Assembly: GCA_016934975.1 (NCBI GenBank)
Contig: JAFGRV010000163.1
Location: forward strand, 1-35,346
Origin: Spirochaetales bacterium
GTDB lineage: Bacteria > Spirochaetota > Spirochaetia > SZUA-6 > JAFGRV01
Length of the DNA: 35,346 nucleotides
Direction: 5' to 3'
The position numbers were made by a program, and so were the translations under genes. Within the stretch, counting starts at the first letter, position 1. Each line of letters begins with the position of its first letter. The notes under the pieces were generated by a model. It saw nothing but the letters and a program-made list of their open reading frames with translations, had not been told where the DNA came from and ran no database searches. Of this stretch, positions 3,405 through 35,346 are shown in pieces.

Positions 3405-6400
3405 ATGAAAGATATTGATCCATTAGATATTGCAGTAATTGGAATGAGTTGTTATTTCCCTGAAGCTGATAATATCGAACAATTTTGGAACAATCTGAAA
3501 AATGGGATTTGTTCGGTAAAATTTTATTCTCAGCAGGAATTATTAGAACGCGGAGTTAATAAAAATTTTTTAAATCATCCGGATTATGTAAAAGCTTCTC
3601 CCTATTTTTCCAGAGCAAGATTGTTTGACGCAGGTTTTTTTAAAATTAATCCCGGTGAAGCTAATATTCTGGATCCCCAGCGTAGATTGTTTTTTGAGAA
3701 TTGCTACCATGCTCTGGAGGATGGTGGATATGTGCCGGAAAAATATTCCGGGAAAATTGGCGTTTTTGGTAGTACCGGGATAAATTTTTATGGTTTGGAC
3801 CTCATAGCGAATAAAGAATTACTCAATACGGTGAGCCCTTTGCAGATAATTACCAGCAATGAGAAAGATGGTCTCCCTACACAAGCATCCTACCTTTTAG
3901 ATCTTACCGGGCCCAGTGTTAATGTCAATTGTACCTGTTCATCTACTCTTGTTGCCATCCATCTCGCCAGGCAGTCATTACTTCTGGGAGATTCGGATAT
4001 GGTTTTAGCCGGAGGAAGTACAGTAATTCTTCCTGAAAATGAGGGATATTTCTACGAACGTGATGGGATCCTGTCCAAGGATGGATACTGCAGGGCATTT
4101 GATGATGATTCAAGCGGCACATTATGGGGCAGCGGCACCGGAGTTGTTCTTTTGAAAAGATTGAGTGATGCGGTTCAAGATGGAGATAACATCAGGGCGA
4201 TCATTAAAGGATCGGCGATTAATAATGACGGTTCAAAAAAAGTCGGCTATACTGCACCGAGCCTTGAAGGACAATCAGAAGTGATTGTACAGGCATATGC
4301 GTCTTCCGGAATTTCTCCGGAAACAGTCAGTTATATTGAGGCTCATGGAACAGGTACAAAAATTGGTGATCCCATAGAAGTCAAAGCATTAACAAAAGCA
4401 TTCAGAGAATATACTGATGCGAAAAATTTCTGTGGATTAGGGTCGGTAAAAACCAACTTTGGTCATTTGGGAGCATCGGCGGGAATAGCAAGTTTTATAA
4501 AAGCTGTTTTAGCATTAGATAATAAACAAATACCTCCCAGTCTTCATTTTAAGACACCAAATAAAAGTATAGATTTTGAAAACTCACCTTTCTATGTCAA
4601 TACCGAGCTTAAGGATATGAAAAACCAAAAATCTCCTTTAAGATTTGGGGTCAGTTCTTTGGGAGTCGGCGGGACTAATGCTCATATCATACTTGAAGAA
4701 GTTGCAAAGGAATTTAAGGAAAGTATCACGAAGGAAAGTAAAGATTCTGTTATTATCTTATCAGCAAGAAATGAGAAACAATTAAATGCAAGCAAAATGA
4801 ATCTTGTTCATTTTCTGGAAAATAACAAAGATATTTCTCTCAGGAATTTATCTTTTACTTTGCAGAATGGCAGACGGAATTTTAAAAATAAAATGGCGGT
4901 AACGGCTGCAACGGTAGAAGAAGCTATAAAAAAATTAAAAAGTGATAATTCAGCCGGGATTATCACTGAGTCCGATTATCCGGAAAAAATATCCGCTGCG
5001 GATAATGAAATAAAAAATAAATTGGTTAAATGGTTTAAAGATGAAGATGTTGACTGGTACACTCTTTATAAAGATGAAAAACCCAGAAGAATAAGTCTGC
5101 CTGCCTATCCTTTTGAAGAAAGCACTTATTGGATAGAATCAAACAGGACCGATTCTATAGCTACCGAGGAAGATGATACCCTGGCTCATAGAACGGATAA
5201 TATGGCGGATTGGCTTTATTATCAAAGCTGGAAACAAACGAGTCTTCCGCCGGCATTCTCCGGAAACACGGGAGATAAAAAGAACTATATTGTATTTGTC
5301 GATACAGATAAATTGGGTTCTGATGTCGGTCAAAAATTAGAATCTATGGGAGATAAAGTCATATATGTTTATCCGGGTAAGAAGTATGGCAAGAAAGAAA
5401 ATCATTCTTATGAAATAAACCCGGAAGATCCCGAATCATTTCAGAGTTTAATTAAAGATTTAATTGGAAATAATCTCGTCCCCGATTCTATTTTACATTT
5501 TTATGGCTTAAATGGGGGGTCAAAAAATAATGTTTTATCACAGGTGAAATCGGTTTTTTCATTCCAAAAATACGGATTAGTTTTTTTAACAAACCTGGTT
5601 AAAACAATAGTTTCCAATAAGATTGTAAAAAAAATCGACCTTATATCCGTGGTAAATAATGTATATAATATTCAGGGGAATGAAGATATATTTGCCGAGA
5701 AATCAACCATACCGAGTGCTTTAAAGGTAATTCAGCAGGAATATCCCAATTTTACCAGCCGGGTAATTGAAATAAATTCTCATTTCTTAAAGAATCCGAA
5801 TCGGACAACACTCATGGTAAATGAACTGTTGTCAAAGAACACGGATATAATCTGTTCTTATCGTGGAAATATGAGGTGGGTACTTGGATATAATAAAATT
5901 GTCATTGAAGCAGAAAATGAGAAAAAATCAGTTTTTAAAAAGAATGGTGTATATTTTATCTTTGGCGGAACAACTGGTGGGATACCGTTTATTTATGAAT
6001 ATATAAATAAGACATATGACGCGAAGTTGATTCTTCTGGATGATTTTTACCTTCCCCCGGAAAAAGAGTGGGATAAATGGCTGGAAGAAAATGGTGCTAA
6101 TGAATACAACTCCTTAAGGATCAAGACGGTAAAAAAATTAAAATCCTTTGGCGTTGAATTTATAGATGGTGTCGATATTTTATCCGTCGCCGGCAAGGTC
6201 AAAGCGGAAAAGAAGATAAAAGAGTTTGAGAAAAAATATGGTAAGATTAATGGAATCATTCATGCTGCCGGAGGGTATGCGGCCGGACGGATAGCTCCTC
6301 TTAGTGAATCATATGATATCCTTAATAATCAATTAGGGATGTATAACCTGGCATCCATCGGGGCTTCATTAATAATAATCAATGATATATTTAAAAACAG

Positions 6401-7079
6401 GGATCTGGATTTCAGATATTTGTGGGCTTCTTTAAGCACGGTATTGGCAGGACCGGCATTTTTAACCTATGCTGCTTCTGATTCCGTTGCAATTACCGCG
6501 GCTTTACGTGCAAACAGCTATCTAAAGCAACCATGGGGTGTCATCTGCTGGGATTCTCTTGAGTCCGAATGGTTTGAAGATCTTGTGGAAGAGAGAATGA
6601 AGATTGCGTATGATGTGACCCATGATAGGATTGCCGATGGTTTAATAACAACAGATGAAGCTAATAAATGCCTGGAAATATTATCCGGGGTGAATGCACA
6701 ATTCAATCCAATTATTACTTCATGTTCGGATTTGTATAAGCGTTATAATATCTGGATTAAAAGAGATTATGCATTAAGAACAAAAAAAGGTACACATAAC
6801 GCAGTATCAAAATCGAGACCAAACCTAACAATTCCCTATGAACCGCCGCAAACTGAACTGGAAAAATCAATTATTGATATTATGGAACAACTGTTAAATA
6901 TTAAAGGTATAGGACGGAACGATAATTTTTTTGAATTAGGCGGTAATTCTCTTATAGGTATTCAATATGCCTCTAAAATCCGGGAAATAAGTAAAGTTGA
7001 TTTGGGAATGGACAAAATTTATGAATATCAAAGTGCTGCAAATATTGCTGAATTCATTGAAAAGGGAAGTAATGAGTGA
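3405..7079 (+). CDS. Trans-AT type I polyketide synthase, KS-KR-ACP
   Basis: 1224 residues. A ketosynthase occupies about residues 5-435 with an intact triad: Cys178 (CTCSST), His314 (EAHGTGT) and His354 (NFGHLGASAG). A post-KS flanking region ends in LPAYPFEESTYW (about residues 565-576). No acyltransferase follows, the hallmark of trans-AT enzymes. A ketoreductase spans about residues 600-1125, opened by YYQSWK. Its NADPH loop is degenerate (FGGTTGGIP from 853). Ser1009 and Tyr1022 are in place, but the usual catalytic Lys region reads NNQLG and the Tyr motif is YAASD rather than YAAAN, so activity is doubtful. A carrier domain follows with the NRPS-like motif ELGGNSL and Ser1182 as the phosphopantetheine site. 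AGGA seven nt upstream supports the start. Thirteen nt separate the stop from the thioesterase gene, so the two are surely co-transcribed. It may make or extend a short starter chain for the C/FkbH protein downstream. Confidence 0.9.
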   Translation: MKDIDPLDIAVIGMSCYFPEADNIEQFWNNLKNGICSVKFYSQQELLERGVNKNFLNHPDYVKASPYFSRARLFDAGFFKINPGEANILDPQRRLFFENCYHALEDGGYVPEKYSGKIGVFGSTGINFYGLDLIANKELLNTVSPLQIITSNEKDGLPTQASYLLDLTGPSVNVNCTCSSTLVAIHLARQSLLLGDSDMVLAGGSTVILPENEGYFYERDGILSKDGYCRAFDDDSSGTLWGSGTGVVLLKRLSDAVQDGDNIRAIIKGSAINNDGSKKVGYTAPSLEGQSEVIVQAYASSGISPETVSYIEAHGTGTKIGDPIEVKALTKAFREYTDAKNFCGLGSVKTNFGHLGASAGIASFIKAVLALDNKQIPPSLHFKTPNKSIDFENSPFYVNTELKDMKNQKSPLRFGVSSLGVGGTNAHIILEEVAKEFKESITKESKDSVIILSARNEKQLNASKMNLVHFLENNKDISLRNLSFTLQNGRRNFKNKMAVTAATVEEAIKKLKSDNSAGIITESDYPEKISAADNEIKNKLVKWFKDEDVDWYTLYKDEKPRRISLPAYPFEESTYWIESNRTDSIATEEDDTLAHRTDNMADWLYYQSWKQTSLPPAFSGNTGDKKNYIVFVDTDKLGSDVGQKLESMGDKVIYVYPGKKYGKKENHSYEINPEDPESFQSLIKDLIGNNLVPDSILHFYGLNGGSKNNVLSQVKSVFSFQKYGLVFLTNLVKTIVSNKIVKKIDLISVVNNVYNIQGNEDIFAEKSTIPSALKVIQQEYPNFTSRVIEINSHFLKNPNRTTLMVNELLSKNTDIICSYRGNMRWVLGYNKIVIEAENEKKSVFKKNGVYFIFGGTTGGIPFIYEYINKTYDAKLILLDDFYLPPEKEWDKWLEENGANEYNSLRIKTVKKLKSFGVEFIDGVDILSVAGKVKAEKKIKEFEKKYGKINGIIHAAGGYAAGRIAPLSESYDILNNQLGMYNLASIGASLIIINDIFKNRDLDFRYLWASLSTVLAGPAFLTYAASDSVAITAALRANSYLKQPWGVICWDSLESEWFEDLVEERMKIAYDVTHDRIADGLITTDEANKCLEILSGVNAQFNPIITSCSDLYKRYNIWIKRDYALRTKKGTHNAVSKSRPNLTIPYEPPQTELEKSIIDIMEQLLNIKGIGRNDNFFELGGNSLIGIQYASKIREISKVDLGMDKIYEYQSAANIAEFIEKGSNE

Positions 7080-7092
7080 TATTGATTAGTAG

Positions 7093-7857
7093 GTGAAGAT
7101 GAAAAGTGATCAGTTAATTAAAAGATATAACTCAAGTTCAAGAAATAAAATCCGCATGTTTATCTTCCCCTTTGCCGGTGGCAGGGCATCGGCTTTTAAG
7201 AAATGGGAAGAATTTCTCGCACCGGAAATTGAGATATGCCCTTTGCAATTACCCGGAAGAGAGGAGAGATATTATGAAACCCTCTATCAGCATGTAGATG
7301 AATTAATGGGGGAAATGAAAAATGCAATTGTGGATTATATCGATCTCCCCTATGTATTTTTTGGTCATAGTATGGGAGCTTATTTATGTTATGAAGCTTG
7401 CCGTGTTATTGAAGATATGGATTTCCCATTACCGATGCATGTTTTTTTAACAGGAGCCAGCCCGAAAATAAAAAAAATTGATGACAGTATAAAAAATGAC
7501 ATTGATGATGAAACCCTGTTATCCGATTTAAAGAAATTTGACGGTATTCCTGCCGAAGTTTTAGAAGATGATACTTTATTAAAAATGTTTCTAAAGATCA
7601 TTCGCGCCGATTTATCGATTTTAAAATCTACGTTTAAAGGAAGTGATTATAAATTCAGCATGCCTATATCAGTGTTTGGCGGAGACTCCGATTATTATGT
7701 GAATCCGGATGAGCTAAAAGGCTGGGATAATTTTACAAAAGCGTATTACAGTCTTTTTATTTTACCGGGAGGACATTTTTTTATATTTAAAGAGAACGAA
7801 AAACTGCTTTCTCACATTAATAGAGAATTGAAATATTTAGCTTTTCAAAATAAATAA
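7093..7857 (+). CDS. Type II thioesterase (editing hydrolase)
   Basis: 254 residues, the usual size of free-standing alpha/beta-hydrolase thioesterases that clear stalled or misprimed acyl groups from PKS/NRPS carrier proteins in the cytoplasm. The N-terminus has FPFAGGRASAFKKW and QLPGRE, typical of the GrsT family. The catalytic triad is visible: Ser93 in GHSMG, Asp200 in GGDSDYYV, and His228 in PGGHFF. The GTG at 7093 gives the longest frame; the ATG at 7099, two codons later and just after AGGTG, is an equally good start. It lies 13 nt after one PKS gene and 18 nt before the next, in one operon. GHSMG here should not be mistaken for an acyltransferase GHSxG; the size and the other motifs rule that out. 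Confidence 0.92.
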   Translation: MKMKSDQLIKRYNSSSRNKIRMFIFPFAGGRASAFKKWEEFLAPEIEICPLQLPGREERYYETLYQHVDELMGEMKNAIVDYIDLPYVFFGHSMGAYLCYEACRVIEDMDFPLPMHVFLTGASPKIKKIDDSIKNDIDDETLLSDLKKFDGIPAEVLEDDTLLKMFLKIIRADLSILKSTFKGSDYKFSMPISVFGGDSDYYVNPDELKGWDNFTKAYYSLFILPGGHFFIFKENEKLLSHINRELKYLAFQNK

Positions 7858-7875: not shown

Positions 7876-10800
7876 ATGGATATTGAAAACCGGGGAATTA
7901 TTTTAAATAACATAAACTCAATTATCGAAGAAAAAGCCGGAATGAAATTTGAGACCCAATCTAATTTTCTAGATTTAGGCGGGAATTCAATTGTGGCAGC
8001 CCAGATAATCGGTGAAATAAATCAGATTTATGGTGTTGATTTGCAGGTAAGTGCCATGCTGGATGCGGTAAACATCGGCGGTTTTATTGATACCGCCATC
8101 GAGGAAGTGCTTACTAATGGAACTCTTGATACTGATGATGCATTAAATAAAAATCGTGATACGGATGAGAAAGATAATAAATGGCCATTGACATCCGACC
8201 AGGAAAGAATTTGGTTTTTAGACAAAATAAATCCTAAAAATCCCGCTTTTAATATATATGTTGCTTTGAGAATTAAAGGAAAATTTAATTATGAAATTTT
8301 GAATCAAAGTGTCAATTACCTTTTAAGCCGGCATAAACTATTAAGAGCCAGATTTGTAATGGAAGAGGGCAGGATTTACCAGATAGTGGAGGCATTGGAA
8401 AATATTGTCGTTCCTGTTGAAGATATAAACGAGGCTGAAATTAATGAAAAGTTAATGAATGAAGCATCAATTGGAATGGATATCTTAAAAGGAAATCTTA
8501 TTAAAACAAAAGTATTTCAACTTAATGAGAATGACAGAATCCTGTTTATGAATATTCATCATATTATCAGTGATGCATGGTCACTTGGCATTCTGATGGA
8601 TGATCTTATGAAAAAGTATTCCATGATTGCATCGGGATACGATGGGGAAATTGACAAACTTACATATGATTATCTGGATTTTATACATCATCAGGCCGGT
8701 ATATTGGAAAAAAATAAGAAAAATCAGGTTGATTTCTGGAAAGATAATTTAAAGGATGTTCCTACTCAGATAAATTTACCCTATGATCTGAAAAGGCCGG
8801 AGGTATTAACCTACCGGGCCGGGCATATCCGGTTTGAATTAAAAAGCGAATTAGTGGATTTATTAAAAACTATTACTAAGGAATATAAAGTTACTATTTT
8901 TAATTTTCTCTATTCGTCATTTACCGCCTTGCTTTATAAAATCTCCAATCAAAAAGAGTTTTTAATCGGGTGCCCTATTGCTAACAGGAAACTTTCCGAT
9001 TTCAATAAAATAGTCGGATTCTTTACAAATACCCTGGTCATGAAAAATAAGTTTTCTCCCGACCTCAGCTTTACGGAAGAGATGAAACAGAATCATGAAA
9101 CCAGTAATAATGCGTTCAGTAACTCAGACGTACCTTTTATAGATATTGTTAAAAATGTTTCAGACACACGTGAATATAATTATAATCCGCTTTTTCAGAT
9201 TATGTTCAGCTTGCTGCAAAGCGCTGAATTCCCGGTTACAGAAGAAACCACTATTGAGTATGTTGATTTATTTTCCGGTTATTCAGACTATGATATATTT
9301 TTAACTATGGAGGTAGGTGCTCATAGTATAAAAGGTTCATTTAATTATTCGAAGGATGTTTTTCTTGATGATACCGCACAATCAATTATATCGGGATTTG
9401 TTACTATTATTGAACAGATTATAAAAAAACCGGATATTCTCATAGATGAATTGGCTATTACCGATGATTTACAAAAAATCGTTGAAAATTTTAATATACG
9501 AAACCATAAACAACAGATTGTTATTTCTTCTACTTTTTCTGATCAGCCTATAAAAGATATCGTATCATTCTGGATGAATAAGCTTGACCTCCCTTCTTCT
9601 GTTCTTCTGGCTGATTACAACACTGTATTTAATCAGTTACTGGATACTCAACAATTAATGATGAAAAATAATGACGGAGTAAATATTATTCTCGTAAGAT
9701 TGGAAGATTGGGTCCGGTATAAAAGTGGTGAAAAAAAAGAAGAAATAGTGAGTATTTGCGATCAATTTATCAGTTCTTTGGAGAAGGCTATTAATAGTTT
9801 TTCTGTTCCTGTCATACTCAGTGTTCTCCCCTCAAGTAAAAATTCACCTTTAATTGCAGATGATGTTGTTGAATCTCTGACTGATAAAATAATAACTACT
9901 TTTGAACATAATAATAAAATACATATTTTAAAAACAGAAGAAATATATTCTCATTACCCGATGGATGATATTTTTGATGAGGTAACGGATAAGCAAGGGC
10001 ACATGCCTTTTACCGTTGATTTCTATAAAGCCCTGAGTACAGCAATTGCCAGAAAAATATATGGGATAAAAAAACAACCCTTTAAAGTGATTATCCTGGA
10101 TTGTGATAACACTTTATGGAAAGGCGTTGTTGCAGAAGATGGTATTGAAAATATTGAAATTGATCCTCCCAGAGTTCTATTTCAAAAATTAATGGTAGAA
10201 CAGCAGCAAAAGGGGATGTTGTTATGTCTTGTAAGCAAGAATGAAGAATCGGATGTTTTAAAAGTATTTCAGGAAAAAACCGGAATGATTTTAAAAGAAA
10301 ATCATATAGTTCGAATAAAAGCAAATTGGCAGCCGAAATCTCACAATATAAAAGAGATCGCCAGTGAATTAAATCTGGGTCTGGATAGTATTATTTTTGT
10401 TGATGATAATCCCGTCGAATGTGCGGAAGTGTCCGGTGCTCTTCCTCAAGTGCTTACCATACCTTTTCCCGTTGATCCGGAAGGCATTAACGACTTGATA
10501 ATACATGGCTGGTTCTGGGATCATCTGACAATAAGTGAAACAGATAAAAACCGTACCGCAATGTATAAAGAAGAGATGACACGTAAAAATGAAATTGCAA
10601 AACATATAACCTTTGAGGAATTTTACAATTCTCTTCAGTTGGAAATTGATATACAGGATATTAAAGAGGAAGATATTCAAAGAGTGAGTCAATTAACTAT
10701 TAGAACAAATCAGTTTAATACGACAAAAATCGTAAGAACAGAGAATGATATTTCTCAATTTCTTTCGGATGAGAAGAATAAATGTCTTGCCGTAAGTGTC

Positions 10801-11592
10801 AGCGACCGCTTCGGCTCATATGGATTAGTCGGGGCTGTGTTTTGCACCCTTTCGGAAAAAGAATTAAAAGTCGATTCTTTAATTCTCAGTTGCAGAACTT
10901 TGGGAAAAGGTGTTGAGCATAGAATGCTTAATAAAATTTCTGAAATCGCCATTCAACATAATGTGGATCAGATTCTCATTCCCTTTTATACCACGGACCG
11001 AAACAGACCGGTCTTAAATTTCCTTACCGGTATAGAATGTCAAAACAAAGAGAAGCTGGAGAACGGGGACCTCTTTTATTATTCGGCAAAGCAGATGATT
11101 GATTTGAAGTTTGATCCTTCGGCTAATGATAAAGTCGGGGAACAGGAAGAAAAAAAGGAAATTATTTATAAAAGTAAGAGACGGGTTGATAATAAGATAT
11201 TACTGGAAATAGTAAATAAATACAGTCAAATTAAAAATATTAATATAAATTCATCAACGTTAAAACGATTTAAGAATTCCAATGCAAAACCTGAAAATGA
11301 GGTTCAGGAAAAAATTATTTCACTCGCAAAGGAAGTCTTACATATTGAAGATATTGGGATTGATGTTAATTTTTTTGAATTAGGGGGGTATTCAATTCAG
11401 TTGGTTCAACTTCTAAGTGTTATTCAAAAAGAATTTGAATGTACTATTGAAATAACAGATTTGTTTCAATATACAAATATTCGAAAATTAGCCGACTATT
11501 TAACACATGGAGAATCTGACAGGAAATTAAAAGAAACGAAGAAAAGGGGAGAGATGCAGAGACAGAGGTTGCTCAATTTAAAAAGGAAGTAA
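7876..11592 (+). CDS. Hybrid carrier-condensation-FkbH-carrier protein (ACP-C-FkbH-ACP)
   Basis: 1238 residues. The first carrier domain (about 1-80) has DLGGNS with Ser38. A condensation domain (about 103-540) opens WPLTSDQERIWFLD and has the intact active site HHIISDAWS (His228, His229, Asp233), resembling LCL-type C domains. An FkbH-like domain (about 555-1090) follows. Its HAD core reads LDCDNTLWKGVVAEDG (Asp742, Asp744) with VDDNP at Asp843-Asp844, and the C-terminal acyltransferase-like part contains SCRTLGKGVEH (Cys1006). FkbH-type enzymes take 1,3-bisphosphoglycerate, dephosphorylate it and load a glyceryl unit on a carrier protein. A second carrier domain has ELGGYS with Ser1173. GGAG (7862-7865) precedes the ATG by 10 nt. 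With the C domain set between two carriers, the natural inference is that it joins an acyl group from one carrier to the glyceryl (hydroxyl) unit on the other. No adenylation domain is present, so an amino acid substrate is not indicated. Confidence 0.88.
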   Translation: MDIENRGIILNNINSIIEEKAGMKFETQSNFLDLGGNSIVAAQIIGEINQIYGVDLQVSAMLDAVNIGGFIDTAIEEVLTNGTLDTDDALNKNRDTDEKDNKWPLTSDQERIWFLDKINPKNPAFNIYVALRIKGKFNYEILNQSVNYLLSRHKLLRARFVMEEGRIYQIVEALENIVVPVEDINEAEINEKLMNEASIGMDILKGNLIKTKVFQLNENDRILFMNIHHIISDAWSLGILMDDLMKKYSMIASGYDGEIDKLTYDYLDFIHHQAGILEKNKKNQVDFWKDNLKDVPTQINLPYDLKRPEVLTYRAGHIRFELKSELVDLLKTITKEYKVTIFNFLYSSFTALLYKISNQKEFLIGCPIANRKLSDFNKIVGFFTNTLVMKNKFSPDLSFTEEMKQNHETSNNAFSNSDVPFIDIVKNVSDTREYNYNPLFQIMFSLLQSAEFPVTEETTIEYVDLFSGYSDYDIFLTMEVGAHSIKGSFNYSKDVFLDDTAQSIISGFVTIIEQIIKKPDILIDELAITDDLQKIVENFNIRNHKQQIVISSTFSDQPIKDIVSFWMNKLDLPSSVLLADYNTVFNQLLDTQQLMMKNNDGVNIILVRLEDWVRYKSGEKKEEIVSICDQFISSLEKAINSFSVPVILSVLPSSKNSPLIADDVVESLTDKIITTFEHNNKIHILKTEEIYSHYPMDDIFDEVTDKQGHMPFTVDFYKALSTAIARKIYGIKKQPFKVIILDCDNTLWKGVVAEDGIENIEIDPPRVLFQKLMVEQQQKGMLLCLVSKNEESDVLKVFQEKTGMILKENHIVRIKANWQPKSHNIKEIASELNLGLDSIIFVDDNPVECAEVSGALPQVLTIPFPVDPEGINDLIIHGWFWDHLTISETDKNRTAMYKEEMTRKNEIAKHITFEEFYNSLQLEIDIQDIKEEDIQRVSQLTIRTNQFNTTKIVRTENDISQFLSDEKNKCLAVSVSDRFGSYGLVGAVFCTLSEKELKVDSLILSCRTLGKGVEHRMLNKISEIAIQHNVDQILIPFYTTDRNRPVLNFLTGIECQNKEKLENGDLFYYSAKQMIDLKFDPSANDKVGEQEEKKEIIYKSKRRVDNKILLEIVNKYSQIKNININSSTLKRFKNSNAKPENEVQEKIISLAKEVLHIEDIGIDVNFFELGGYSIQLVQLLSVIQKEFECTIEITDLFQYTNIRKLADYLTHGESDRKLKETKKRGEMQRQRLLNLKRK

Positions 11593-11919: not shown

Positions 11920-14900
11920 ATGATATTTGAATTTCATGTTAATTTTAAAGAGGATGTATATTCTATGAAAAAGAATAAAAGCGAAAACAAATCAAAAGAC
12001 ATTTCAAGTCATTCACCCAAGGGGAAACGTTTGGAATTGAAGGGATTAAGCTTAAAAGAATGTGTGCAATGGGATTTGAAAAAGCTTATAAGTACGATGC
12101 TTGGGATTTCACGGGAAAATATAAATTTGGATACTAATCTATCCGAGCTTGGTTTTGATTCGATTAAATTGGTGGAATTTGCTAAAGTTTTAAGCAATGA
12201 TTTTATATTGGAAATCACCCCTTCTATTTTTTTTGGATATTCCACTCTTGAAAAATTAAGTGACTATTTTGTCGTGGAACATCTAAAAGCAATGGAAGAG
12301 TTTTACAAGGAAAATCTTGTGGATGAGAAGATTGATGAGGAGATTTCCGAACCTGAACAGGATAAAAAGATCATTCATGAAAAACAAAATCAAAAAAGAA
12401 CAGGATCTGCGGCTAAAAGTAATTTTAATAAAGATTTAGAACCGATTGCAATAATAGGAATGAGCGGCCGGTTTCCGAATGCCTATAATATTGATGAAAT
12501 GTGGAGGATTATTGTTGAAGGAAGAGATGTTGTAAGAGAAATTCCGGCAGATCGATTTGACTGGAAGTTATTTTACGATGAATCCGGCAATACTCCCGGG
12601 AAAACCAATTCAAGATGGCTCGGGTACATTCCAGGAGTCAGTGAATTTGACCACCGTTTCTTTCAGATTTCACCCCGGGAAGCGGAAGGAATGGATCCGA
12701 GACAGCGTCTTTTACTTCAGGAATCCTGGAAAGCATTGGAAGATGCCGGATATGGGCAGAAACAGATCAAGAACAAACATATAGGTATGTTTGTTGGGGT
12801 AGATCAGATTGATTACCGGCTTGGCAGCAATTTTGATGAAAATATTACATCCAATAATAACGCAATTTTAGCGGCACGATTATCGTATTTTTTAAATCTT
12901 TTCGGCCCCAGTATGGCAATAAATACGACCTGTTCATCCGGATTGGTCGCTGCGCATCAGGCGATTCTTAATTTACATCAAAGAGAATGTGATACGGCAA
13001 TTGCTGCCGGTGTTAATCTGATATTTACTCCGGAAGCATATATAAGAAGAACCCGGATGGGGATGCTGTCTCCCGACGGCAAATGCTTTGCCTTTGATAT
13101 GCGGGCAAATGGAATTGTTCCCGGGGAAGCGATAGTTGCAATTGTCCTTAAACGATTATCCCAGGCGGAAGCAGACAAAGATGCAATTTATGCCACCATC
13201 GAGGGAAGCTATATAAACTACGATGGTAAAACAAATGGTATCACAGCACCAAGCGGGATTTCCCAATCCAAACTTCTTAAATCATTATATGAAAAATATC
13301 AGTTGAATCCCGAAGATATAGAATACATTATTCCACATGGAACAGGGACGCGATTGGGTGATTCTGTTGAAATTAATGGGTTATATGATGCTTTTAAACA
13401 TTATACAAAAAAGCAAAACTTTTGCGCACTCACTTCTACGAAAACCAATTTCGGTCATACCTTTGCCGCTTCCGGCTTGTTAAGTCTGGTAAGCCTTGTA
13501 CAAGCCTTTTGTCATGAAACAATTCCAGCAAGTCTGCACTGTGAAAAGGAGAATGATTATATTCATTGGGCCGAAAGCCCGTTTTATGTAAATAAGCAGA
13601 ATAAAAAATGGCCGCAAAGTCTGGAAAAAAAACGGATGGGTGCGGTGAGTTCCTTTGGTATTAGCGGGACCAATGCACATATGGTGCTAAAAGACTATAT
13701 AAAAAAGGAAGTTGCCTATATTTCAATGGGTTATTTCCCCTATGTTTTGTTAGTATTTTCCGCAAAGAGTTATGATAGTCTTAATGAAAAAATAACGGAT
13801 ATGATAGAATTCCTGGAAAAGAATGATTTTACGAAACAGAATCTCCTGGAAATCAGCTACACATTATTGGAAGGCCGGCAGCATTTCAACTATCGTTGTG
13901 CGATTGTTGTTCGGGATATTCAGGATGCCGTTTATCTATTAAAGCAGGCAGGAAATAAAGAAAGAACACCCAATTTATTTCAAGGAAATGTTTCTCGTGA
14001 TTTTATCGGACTGGATGCGATAAAAGACCTCATTAAAAAACAAGGTGAAGCATTACAGGAGAAGAATGCGTCTAAATATAAGGAAAACCTTTATGTTTTA
14101 GCTGATTTTTATTGCCAGGGTTATGATCTCCACTGGGATGATCTCTATGGTGATAAAAAACCACACACGATTCATTTACCCACTTATCCTTTTGAAAAAA
14201 ATCATTTTGGAATAGAAGAAATGACCCTTCAGAAAAAAAAGGGATTAAGCCCTGTTTTTTCAAATTCAATGCATCCGTTAGTTCACCAAAATACTTCAAT
14301 TTTTTCCGAACAGCGATTTACCTCATTTTTCACCGGCTCGGAGATTTTCCTGAAAGATTATATTATAAGCGGGCAGAGAATCCTTCCCGCTCTTATTTAC
14401 CTGGAAATGGCAAGAGTTGCCATACATTCGGGATTGGGATTATTAGATGATATAGAGGAGATAGGATTAAAACTCAGCGATGTTGTCTGGTCTTCTCCCG
14501 TAGTTTTAGGTGAACAGGGGAAAGAGGTTCATATTGGTCTTTCTCTGGAAACGAATAAAGATATTATTTTTGAGATCTATGGAAATCCTCAGGAACCGGA
14601 TGTGAAACCGGTTATATATAATCAGGGTCATGCTCACCTGACGAAGATAGAAAAAATCTCGAAACTGGATATAGACGTTTTAAAGTCTGAATTGAACAGT
14701 AAAAGTATCAGTTTATTTCAATACTATGAAAACAGGAAAACCGAGGGAAACCAATATGCCCCGGGATTTCAGGGAATAGATCTTATATATTCGGGACCGC
14801 GGAAGGCGCTGGCAAAATTAACATTGCCTTTAAAGGCTTTTGAGTGCACTGATCAGTTTTGTATGCATCCGGCTATACTTGATGCTGCTCTCCATGCCGC

Positions 14901-17900
14901 AGGATTAATGGTCGTCGCCGGAGATCAAAAAAATAAAAAACACATGGAAGATTATTTACCGGTTCTGCCTTTTGCCCTGGAGGAACTGGAAATATTTAAA
15001 AGCTGCAGTTCTTCCATGTGGGCATTAATTAAACATCGTGACACAAGCATTACATCGCATAAAATGCACACGGTTAATATTAAGTTATGCGATGAAAACG
15101 GAAATGTATGTGTCCGTATGAATGGCTTTTCCTTTCTTATAGCCGATAGAGATATATCTTTTGATCATAAACCGGAAATCAAACAAGAAGAAAACAAAAG
15201 GAAACGGCAAACGACAGTTCAAAGCAACGATGTGACGGACCAGATGATTGAAGATCATGTGAAATCTATTCTTCAGGAAAATATTGCGGAAATATTAAAG
15301 ATGGAATCCGGAGAAATTCATGATGATTTGAGTTTCACTGAATACGGTCTTGATTCTATAATGGGAAGATCCCTCATAAAGTTAATTGATGAGCAATATG
15401 ATATAACATTAGATAATACAATACTGGTAAATTATAACAACATAAACGAATTGTGTCAGCAAATCATTAAAGAGCATAAAGATGCTTTGATTTCTTTGTT
15501 GGCAGGAAATAAGAGTGTACGGGATGAGGCTGATATAAAACTAAATCCTCCTGAACAAGATGAAATTTATATCTTTCCTGTCATTAAAAGTAAAATACAA
15601 AGAGACGGCAGTCAATTAGATGATTTAAAATTCTCTCTTGATGGTAAAGTAAAAAAAGCATCTCTTGCTTATTCTTTTATGCAGCATGATCCTGTTGCAA
15701 TTATCGGGATAAGCGGACGCTTTGCCAAGGCAGAGACCCTGGATGAGTTATGGAAACATCTGGCCAATGGTGATGATTTAATAGAAACCGTTACACGGTG
15801 GGATCTTTCTTCATATTATCCACAGTCTGCAAAATACTGTAATTACGGGAGTTTCATAGATAATATTGATCAATTTGATCACATGTTTTTTAATATTACA
15901 GGACTTGAGGCAGCCTATATGGATCCTCAGCAACGGTTATTTCTGGAGGAATCCTGGAAAGCATTAGAGGATGGGGGTTATGTCGGAGAGAGAGTTAAAG
16001 GACGTAAATGCGGAGTGTATGTCGGGTGCGCTTCGGGAGATTATGCTGATTTATTTAAAAATGATCCGGAGAATAATCCACCTGCCCAGGCTTATTGGGG
16101 TAATTCAGGTTCTATCATCCCTGCCCGGATTGCCTATTATCTGAATCTTCTGGGACCTGCCATAGCTATTGATACGGCCTGTTCAAGTTCGTTAGTAGCC
16201 ATTCATCTCGCCTGCCAGAGCCTATGGGCAAAGGAAACCGATCTGGCTTTAGCCGGTGGTGTCTTCATCCAATCCACTCCCGAGTTGTATATTTATGCAA
16301 ATCGAGCCGGTATGCTTTCACGAAAAGGACATTGCTATACATTTGACAATCGTGCAGATGGATTTGTCCCGGGAGAAGGTGTCGGAGTGATTCTCCTCAA
16401 ACGACTTCAGGAAGCTATAAATGATGGAGATCATATCTACGGGGTAATAAAGGGATCCGGACTTAATCAGGATGGTACATCAAATGGTATTACCGCACCA
16501 AATGTAAAATCCCAGGAACGCCTGGAACGGGAAGTCTATGATACCTATAATATCAAACCTGAAAATATCCAGATGGTAGAAGCTCATGGAACCGGTACGA
16601 TTTTAGGAGATCCAATCGAGTATAATGCGCTTACAAAAGCATTTAGAAAATATACGGATAAAAAAGAATACTGTGCCATAGGATCGATAAAGACAAATAT
16701 CGGGCATACAATCACCGCCGCGGGGATAGCCGGAGTGATGAAGATTCTTTTAGCATTAAAGCACAAGAAAATTCCACCTTCACTTCATTATGAGTCAGGC
16801 AATGAAAATATTCAGTTCAAAGGAAGTCCTTTTTATGTAAACACTCTTTTAAAAGAATGGAATGTTGATAAGGATTCCAAACGCTGCGCAGCTATCAGTT
16901 CTTTCGGATTCAGCGGTACAAATTCTCATATGGTTATTGAAGAAGCCCCGATTATAGAGAGGTCCGTGAGCGAAAAACCCGGGTATTTGATCGTGTTATC
17001 TGCCCGTTCTTTAGAACAATTACGGAAGCAGGCAGAGCAATTAATTCATTTTTGTGAAGTTGAATCCGATGCGTACTGCGGAGACATCAGTTTTACTCTG
17101 TTAATAGGTAGAAAGCATTTTAATCATAGATTATCATGTGTTGTACGCAGCCGGAAAGAACTTGTTAAATTCTTGAAAAAGTGGCTTGATAAAGGCAAGG
17201 TATTACAAATTTATTCTTCAAAGCTGGATGAGAATTTTCAAAGGGAGCAACCTTCCTTAAGAAAATATGGGAATGAATGTATACAAAACTGTCTTAAGAC
17301 CAATGATGTAAAAGAATATTTAGAGCATTTGTCTATGATTGCGGATTTCTATATTCAGGGATATTCCCTGGAATTTGAGAAATTATTTTCAGACAACCGC
17401 TATTCGATTATTTCTTTACCCACATATCCTTTGATGAGAGAACATAACTGGATACCTGAAACCGGCAATATTAATAAAAGAACGGTATCCACGGCGATTA
17501 CTGATATTATTCATCCGTTATTGCATCAAAACATTTCAGATTTTTCCGAACAACGGTTTATTTCCACTTTTACAGGATCGGAGTTTTTCCTGAAAGATCA
17601 TGTTGTAAAAGGCCGGCATGTTTTACCCGGAGTCGCATATCTTGAAATGTCCCGGATGGCTCTATCGACTGCTCTGGGTCATTTTATAGACCATGATAAA
17701 GAAATTATCTGTCTTAAAAGTATTGTCTGGATTCGTCCTATTACCCTGGATGATAAAGATAAAAAGGTTTTTATCAGACTGAATCCCCTTGATAATGGCG
17801 AGATTGCCTATGAGGTGTATTCGTACCCCGATGAGACTTCGACAGATGTCATTGTATATAATCAGGGACGCTCGGTAATAAGTTCGATTAAAGAATTCCC

Positions 17901-34965: not shown

Positions 34966-35346
34966 AACATTATTTTTAAATTTATCTATTAACCATCCAA
35001 TTATTAAAAATCATAGAATTTTCGGACAATCTCTTATGCCCGGCCTGGCATATATTGATTTGCTCTATCAACTGGCAATCAATGAATTGAATCTGGATTA
35101 CCGGGATTACTGCTTAAAAAAGATGTATATATTAAAACCGCTCATTGTAAGTAAAGAGAAGTCTGAAAAGATTAAAATAGTTTTTACCAAAAAGCAGGAT
35201 AATTGGATGATTAGTGTGGAAGGAGCGGATGATGCTGATAAAAAAGAGAATATATATATTTCCGCGGAGCTTCATAAAACAAGAATTCAATTCGAAAATA
35301 ACCTGGATATTGATTCTGTTATAAAAAAGAGTACTCGTAAAACCGA
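34958..35346 (+). CDS. PKS protein beginning with a dehydratase domain (partial, 3' end beyond window)
   Basis: 129 codons are present before the window ends. The ATG at 34958 overlaps the preceding stop (ATGAATAA), and GGGGA stands just upstream. Translation opens MNKTLFLNLS and reaches HRIFGQSLMP, the HxxxGxxxxP motif of PKS dehydratases, with His19 as the catalytic base; PGLAYIDL follows as in the hot-dog fold. There is no ketosynthase in front of it, so the DH completes the module whose KS ends the previous protein. The second catalytic residue (Asp) and any later domains lie outside the window. Confidence 0.85.
   Translation, partial: MNKTLFLNLSINHPIIKNHRIFGQSLMPGLAYIDLLYQLAINELNLDYRDYCLKKMYILKPLIVSKEKSEKIKIVFTKKQDNWMISVEGADDADKKENIYISAELHKTRIQFENNLDIDSVIKKSTRKT

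Follow-up and report, generated by a model that had tools for sequence, protein, structure and literature searches.

A putative glycerate-esterifying condensation-FkbH module in a trans-AT polyketide gene cluster of a spirochaete

The window analyzed here, a stretch of 35,346 nucleotides from a Spirochaetales bacterium, encodes a protein of 1,238 amino acids in which a condensation (C) domain directly precedes an FkbH unit, with both lying between two carrier domains, T1 and T2. We consider it likely that this protein is a glycerate-esterifying NRPS-like module, in which a chain from T1 is esterified to a glyceryl unit on T2 and the product is then taken up by a ketosynthase (KS). The window is the whole of contig G000:C242, part of a fragmented genome of 6.8 Mb. 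Four matches to FlaA, a family of flagellar sheath proteins typical of spirochaetes, occur in this genome and none were obtained from 14 control genomes, so that the host is very probably a spirochaete.

Architecture and active sites of the C-FkbH protein

The gene (positions 7,876–11,592, plus strand like the other genes of the window described here) starts with ATG. Pfam and NCBIfam profiles bear out the carrier-C-FkbH-carrier order of the preliminary description, and no AMP-binding domain, i.e., no adenylation domain, was found in the protein. The C domain (residues 101–533; 8,176–9,474) matches the Condensation profile PF00668 with an E value of 2.7e-84, is likewise identified by trees, structural model and fold match, and carries the motif H228-H229-I-I-S-D233-A-W-S. 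PP-binding profiles matched in two stretches, which correspond to T1 (7,876–8,100), with Ser38 in DLGGNS, and to T2 (11,308–11,502; PF00550 at residues 1145–1209), the presumed carrier of the glyceryl and acyl-glyceryl groups, with Ser1173 in ELGGYS. FkbH (residues 737–1075; 10,084–11,100) combines a HAD-IIIC phosphatase with a GNAT-fold transferase and is recognized by TIGR01686 at residues 737–1053 with 299.7 bits versus a curated cut-off of 146.65. All eight catalytic positions checked, D742, D744, T746, S787, K821, D843, D844 and C1006, are kept and are near-invariant across 87 homologues; the C motif and the FkbH core are thus as intact as had been stated before. Residues ~543–732, between the C and HAD domains, form the N-terminal extension of FkbH (NEX, residues 543–732; 9,502–10,071), which is conserved in the 87 homologues, has a fold match to 3slr and was absent from the preliminary description. 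The T1-C-NEX-FkbH-T2 architecture is far beyond chance.

AlphaFold models built from homologue alignments were confident for the FkbH part as well as for T1-C (pLDDT 92.1 and 92.5, respectively). The FkbH model has fold matches to the BF1531 phosphatase fragment, MDP-1-type HAD phosphatases and GNAT acyltransferases, as would be expected of a bifunctional phosphatase/acyltransferase. Over its full length, the T1-C model superimposes on LgrA PCP-C with TMq values of 0.83–0.87 in most LgrA entries, which include substrate-donation and condensation states, while other PCP-C didomains reach about 0.75. Since the overlay is best on LgrA PCP-C, T1 would plausibly act as the donor carrier and T2 as the acceptor.

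Phylogeny of the C domain and proposed esterification

A tree of 192 C domains, which holds no experimentally proven ester-forming C domain, places the window C domain in the L-clade (LCL/SgcC5-like) with a support of 99 (100/100 in the careful tree), separate from the clade that contains post-epimerase C domains, from starter-like C domains and from E domains. The same clade takes in all but one of the FkbH-linked C domains (56/57), scattered among amide-forming C domains. Most known ester-forming C domains (SgcC5, VioA, CesAB, VlmAB, FkbP and BurF) belong to the LCL/SgcC5 group (PMC12304814; PMC10212144). A grouping with inactive or purely amide-forming clades, which had been named as evidence against an ester, was not found; the domain sits in a mixed clade. 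Because this clade mixes amide- and ester-forming enzymes and the exact sister of the domain is unstable, the phylogeny permits ester formation but neither proves nor refutes it. The window C domain has a long branch (2.0). Its grouping with FkbH-linked C domains (81/94 in the careful tree) was lost once long branches were dropped, and a position as sister of the C domains at one homologous locus (L062, see below) was not rejected (AU p 0.35). In the FkbH tree the window likewise occupies a long branch with unstable position, so that a shared origin with other C-FkbH modules is neither demonstrated nor excluded. The stronger argument for an ester comes from the acceptor, which, if FkbH loads glyceryl, offers hydroxyls and no amine.

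We propose the following sequence of events. As inferred from its family, FkbH would transfer the glyceryl group of 1,3-bisphosphoglycerate, a unit of three carbons drawn from sugar metabolism, to the conserved Cys1006, remove the phosphate and hand the glyceryl unit to T2. The donor on T1 would be an acyl or polyketide chain, either a β-ketoacyl chain from the adjacent KS-KR0-T protein (KR0, degenerate ketoreductase; see below) or a chain provided by a trans-acting loader encoded off the contig. One of the hydroxyls of glyceryl-S-T2 would then attack the donor thioester in the L-clade C domain, giving an O-acyl-glycerate ester on T2, and the acyl-glyceryl thioester would most likely be passed to a KS of the pathway, be it in the large trans-AT PKS or in KS-KR0-T. 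Stalled carriers may be cleared by an editing thioesterase. FkbH substrates are not distinguishable by sequence, and lactyl is possible besides glyceryl; bryostatin provides an example of lactyl as FkbH substrate.

Gene neighborhood and potential donor

The gene for the C-FkbH protein is preceded by two others. The first encodes the KS-KR0-T protein (3,405–7,079; 1,224 amino acids), for which domain profiles reveal a KS with intact C-H-H, a degenerate KR and a PCP-like carrier, and the second a type II thioesterase with GTG start (7,093–7,857; PF00975, 2.9e-34), probably the editing enzyme. With 14 bp between the KS-KR0-T and thioesterase genes and 19 bp between the latter and the T-C-FkbH-T gene, the spacing is operon-like. 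The gene for a PKS of 7,681 amino acids starts 328 bp downstream of the T-C-FkbH-T gene (11,920–34,965). Its domain profiles give the order ACP-KS1-DH(inactive)-ACP-KS2-DH-KR-ACP-ACP-KS3-DH-KR-ACP-KS4-DH-KR-ACP-KS5-KR-ACP-KS0, and KS modules without AT as well as a RhiE-like linker after the KS identify it as a trans-AT PKS. No discrete acyltransferase gene is present on the contig, which ends inside the cluster and cuts the next PKS gene after its start (34,958–35,344), a portion that opens with a DH (PF21089, 1e-9).

For the large PKS, translation may begin with the ATG at 11,965 instead of at 11,920, as the former has a better ribosome-binding site, with the RBS-like AGAGGATG before it. In the DH (14,272–15,135) of the first PKS module, which has no KR, Tyr replaces the catalytic His (KDYIISGQRILP). 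In the stretch 33,490–35,344, a last KS with NGGGS in place of HGTGT, and hence without the histidine, is followed by a gene that begins with a DH, an arrangement corresponding to a split dehydrating bimodule. Promoter and terminator scans gave results close to chance level. The genome contains several multi-modular trans-AT PKS and NRPS contigs (C317, C303, C337, C122 and C363); no end overlaps joining the PKS contigs C317, C303 and C337 to C242 were found.

The KR of KS-KR0-T reaches 21.6 bits, against a Pfam KR cut-off of 22.6, whereas the large PKS has four KRs with scores of 128–160 bits. Its catalytic Lys is replaced by Gln, Asn by Asp, and the Rossmann glycines are altered. Due to these losses the KR is probably inactive, and the protein would consequently supply a β-ketoacyl chain. 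The KS of the same protein falls into a well-supported group (100/100) with cis-AT and PKS/NRPS hybrid KSs, which includes the KS placed after T-C-FkbH-T in L062. For the KS-KR-ACP protein, named in the preliminary description as one source of the acyl chain, the donor would, with the KR degenerate, probably be a β-ketoacyl group. It counts against simple charging of T1 from KS-KR0-T that this protein is separate from T1 and already ends in its own T.

Homologous modules in public genomes

An FkbH-centered alignment, run once against 84,980 species genomes, yielded 80 loci. C domains directly before NEX-FkbH number 57, the window included, and occur in Acidobacteria, Cyanobacteria, Pseudomonadota, Bacteroidota, Bacillota, Verrucomicrobia, Chloroflexi and other phyla. 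C-NEX-FkbH-T is thus a widespread building block, and in the relatives both NRPS and PKS modules feed it, the latter lying immediately 5' of C-FkbH in L037, L046, L048, L049, L059, L063, L071 and others. A KS-AT-KR-T gene stands beside the C-FkbH-T gene in L046, L048 and L049, and the Paenibacillus loci L059 and L066 encode KS-T-C-FkbH-T with a discrete AT gene close by. Modules similar to that of the window are found at both ends of assembly lines. In L062, T-C-FkbH-T is followed by KS-AT, which, judged by domain order, would be polyketide extension of an acyl-glyceryl unit. A trans-AT line ends in a C-FkbH-T module in L065, and in Paludifilum halophilum (L063, 5,199–11,711) and Paenibacillus bouchesdurhonensis (L073, 5,127–11,780) KS-AT-T-C-FkbH-T comes last, with neither KR nor thioesterase. 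Tetronate genes were not recognized next to the terminal C-FkbH-T loci. Halalkalibacter urbisdiaboli encodes KS-T-C-NEX-FkbH-T-R (L071, 5,973–13,001) and a cyanobacterium C-FkbH-T-R (L039, 6,765–12,677), in both cases with intact FkbH residues. These two are BurF-like line-ups that retain the FkbH parts lost from BurF, and they are candidates for glycerate-derived butenolides.

Two loci, L009 of the sister genome G001 and L025 of G131, encode NEX-FkbH-carrier-KS without a C domain. FkbH-T directly before a KS is a known loading module, and the window protein could by the same logic provide a plain glyceryl (or lactyl) starter, its C domain being idle or a structural or transfer element and no ester being formed. 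While the HHxxxDA present here instead of HHxxxDG would suit an idle domain, HHxxxD is intact, and alanine or other residues occupy that position in other FkbH-linked C domains as well as in those of NRPS modules. Moreover, the entire T1-C part would be superfluous, and we regard a plain starter as quite improbable.

Tandem C-FkbH modules are present in L055 (3,615–12,632), L060 (3–19,166) and L049 (7,785–16,769), which suggests two consecutive glycerate units. Such modules, together with the lack of a visible dedicated loader for T1, can be cited for the idea that FkbH charges both carriers and that the C domain makes a glyceryl-glycerate dimer, i.e., an oligoglycerate ester. Yet the donor in VioA and ComK is a fatty acyl chain and there is no sign of FkbH serving an upstream carrier, so that a dimer appears very improbable.

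Position of the module in the assembly line

The starter role assigned to the module in the preliminary description is neither upheld nor refuted. Gene order fits, the window encodes no alternative loader of the large PKS, and L062 provides a precedent. On the other hand, KS1 and the leading ACP of the large PKS look like an internal split-module junction: KS1 is 63% identical to a KS on contig C337 that follows KS-DH-KR-ACP, and the leading ACP-KS1 (ACP at 11,920–12,267) resembles the internal ACP-KS junction there. On the strength of this resemblance, the leading ACP has probably been split off from the end of a different module, and the likeness to C337 speaks against a KS1 tuned to acyl-glycerate. 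Contig C337 also has a thioesterase end and an HMGS/ECH/KS β-branching cassette.

The probably inactive KR and the terminal homologues speak for a terminal module. A β-keto donor and a glycerate ester would be set up for tetronate closure, and we therefore retain a reading in which KS-KR0-T performs the last elongation and keeps the β-keto group, the C domain esterifies the chain to the 2-hydroxyl of glyceryl-S-T2, and Dieckmann closure of the acidic α-carbon on the T2 thioester releases a 3-acyl-5-hydroxymethyl tetronate. The degenerate KR predicts the required β-ketoacyl donor, the T-C-FkbH-T protein has no terminal thioesterase, and homologues in which a KS without KR precedes T-C-FkbH-T are last in L063 and L073 (no thioesterase) and in L065 and stand before a reductase in L071. 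By gene order, however, T-C-FkbH-T precedes and does not follow the large PKS, no dedicated cyclase was seen, and the adjacent thioesterase resembles common type II enzymes. In addition, a Dieckmann tetronate has been experimentally excluded for BurF, and known tetronate pathways use FabH-like enzymes. Taken together, tetronate release by the window module is unlikely. On the incomplete contig, no FabH-like condensing enzyme accompanies FkbH and ACP. A thiotemplated tetronate route without a FabH-like enzyme, in which a KR-less PKS step is combined with T-C-FkbH-T and the ester cyclizes and releases the tetronate, would be the oxygen counterpart of tetramate-forming PKS-NRPS modules; that such a route exists we rate as rather improbable. 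If terminal, β-keto-fed versions do make tetronates or butenolides, these rings would be predictable from sequence and could be checked in the cultured strains found here.

Comparison with known systems

Esterification of glycerate is not a new idea, as VioA and, by proposal, ComK use C-FkbH-T for acyl-glycerate esters. The module of the window is new as to host and pathway and not as to principle. Glyceryl on T2 with an ester made by the C domain, as proposed in the preliminary description, stands as the best chemical reading, with VioA and BurF as precedents, but lacks novelty in principle. As in VioA-type modules, the C domain lies directly before FkbH, a carrier follows FkbH, an adenylation domain is missing, HHxxxD is present and the C domain belongs to the LCL/SgcC5 clade of known ester-forming C domains.

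Vioprolide VioA (FAAL-ACP-C-FkbH-T) forms a fatty-acyl glycerate ester, according to accounts of the work of Auerbach et al. 2018 (in PMC8949500, PMC13122637 and PMC12397197). It shares with the proposed function of the window module a C-FkbH-T unit without A domain, FkbH-loaded glycerate and an acyl-glycerate ester made by the C domain. VioA itself was not found in the sampled Myxococcota genomes. In VioA the donor is a fused FAAL-ACP and the product passes to an NRPS, while the window combines a carrier beside KS-KR0-T with a trans-AT PKS. No FAAL is encoded in the window; the fused FAAL-ACP donor is a feature of VioA and ComK that is dispensable for C-FkbH-T in general. Corramycin ComK (FAAL-ACP-C-HAD(FkbH)-T), for which an acyl-glycerate ester has been proposed and not reconstituted (PMC10099666), resembles the window module in its line-up and differs by its fatty acyl starter and NRPS continuation. 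In malleicyprol BurF, the C domain makes an ester and its His is required (PMC12304814). With the window module as proposed it shares an ester-forming C domain beside NEX, a donor from a PKS and the trans-AT setting; BurF, however, has kept NEX alone, without phosphatase and transferase, receives its acceptor from elsewhere and ends in a reductase. FkbH-T loading modules of trans-AT PKSs, such as L009 and L025, likewise place NEX-FkbH-carrier before a KS but have neither C domain nor donor carrier. On the donor side, a PKS module directly feeding C-FkbH-T is seen in L046/L048/L049 and L059/L066, of which the first three differ by the presence of a KR, and L046, L059 and L066 by NRPS continuation. 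Measured against these systems, the window module would extend glycerate-esterifying modules to a spirochaete trans-AT polyketide line.
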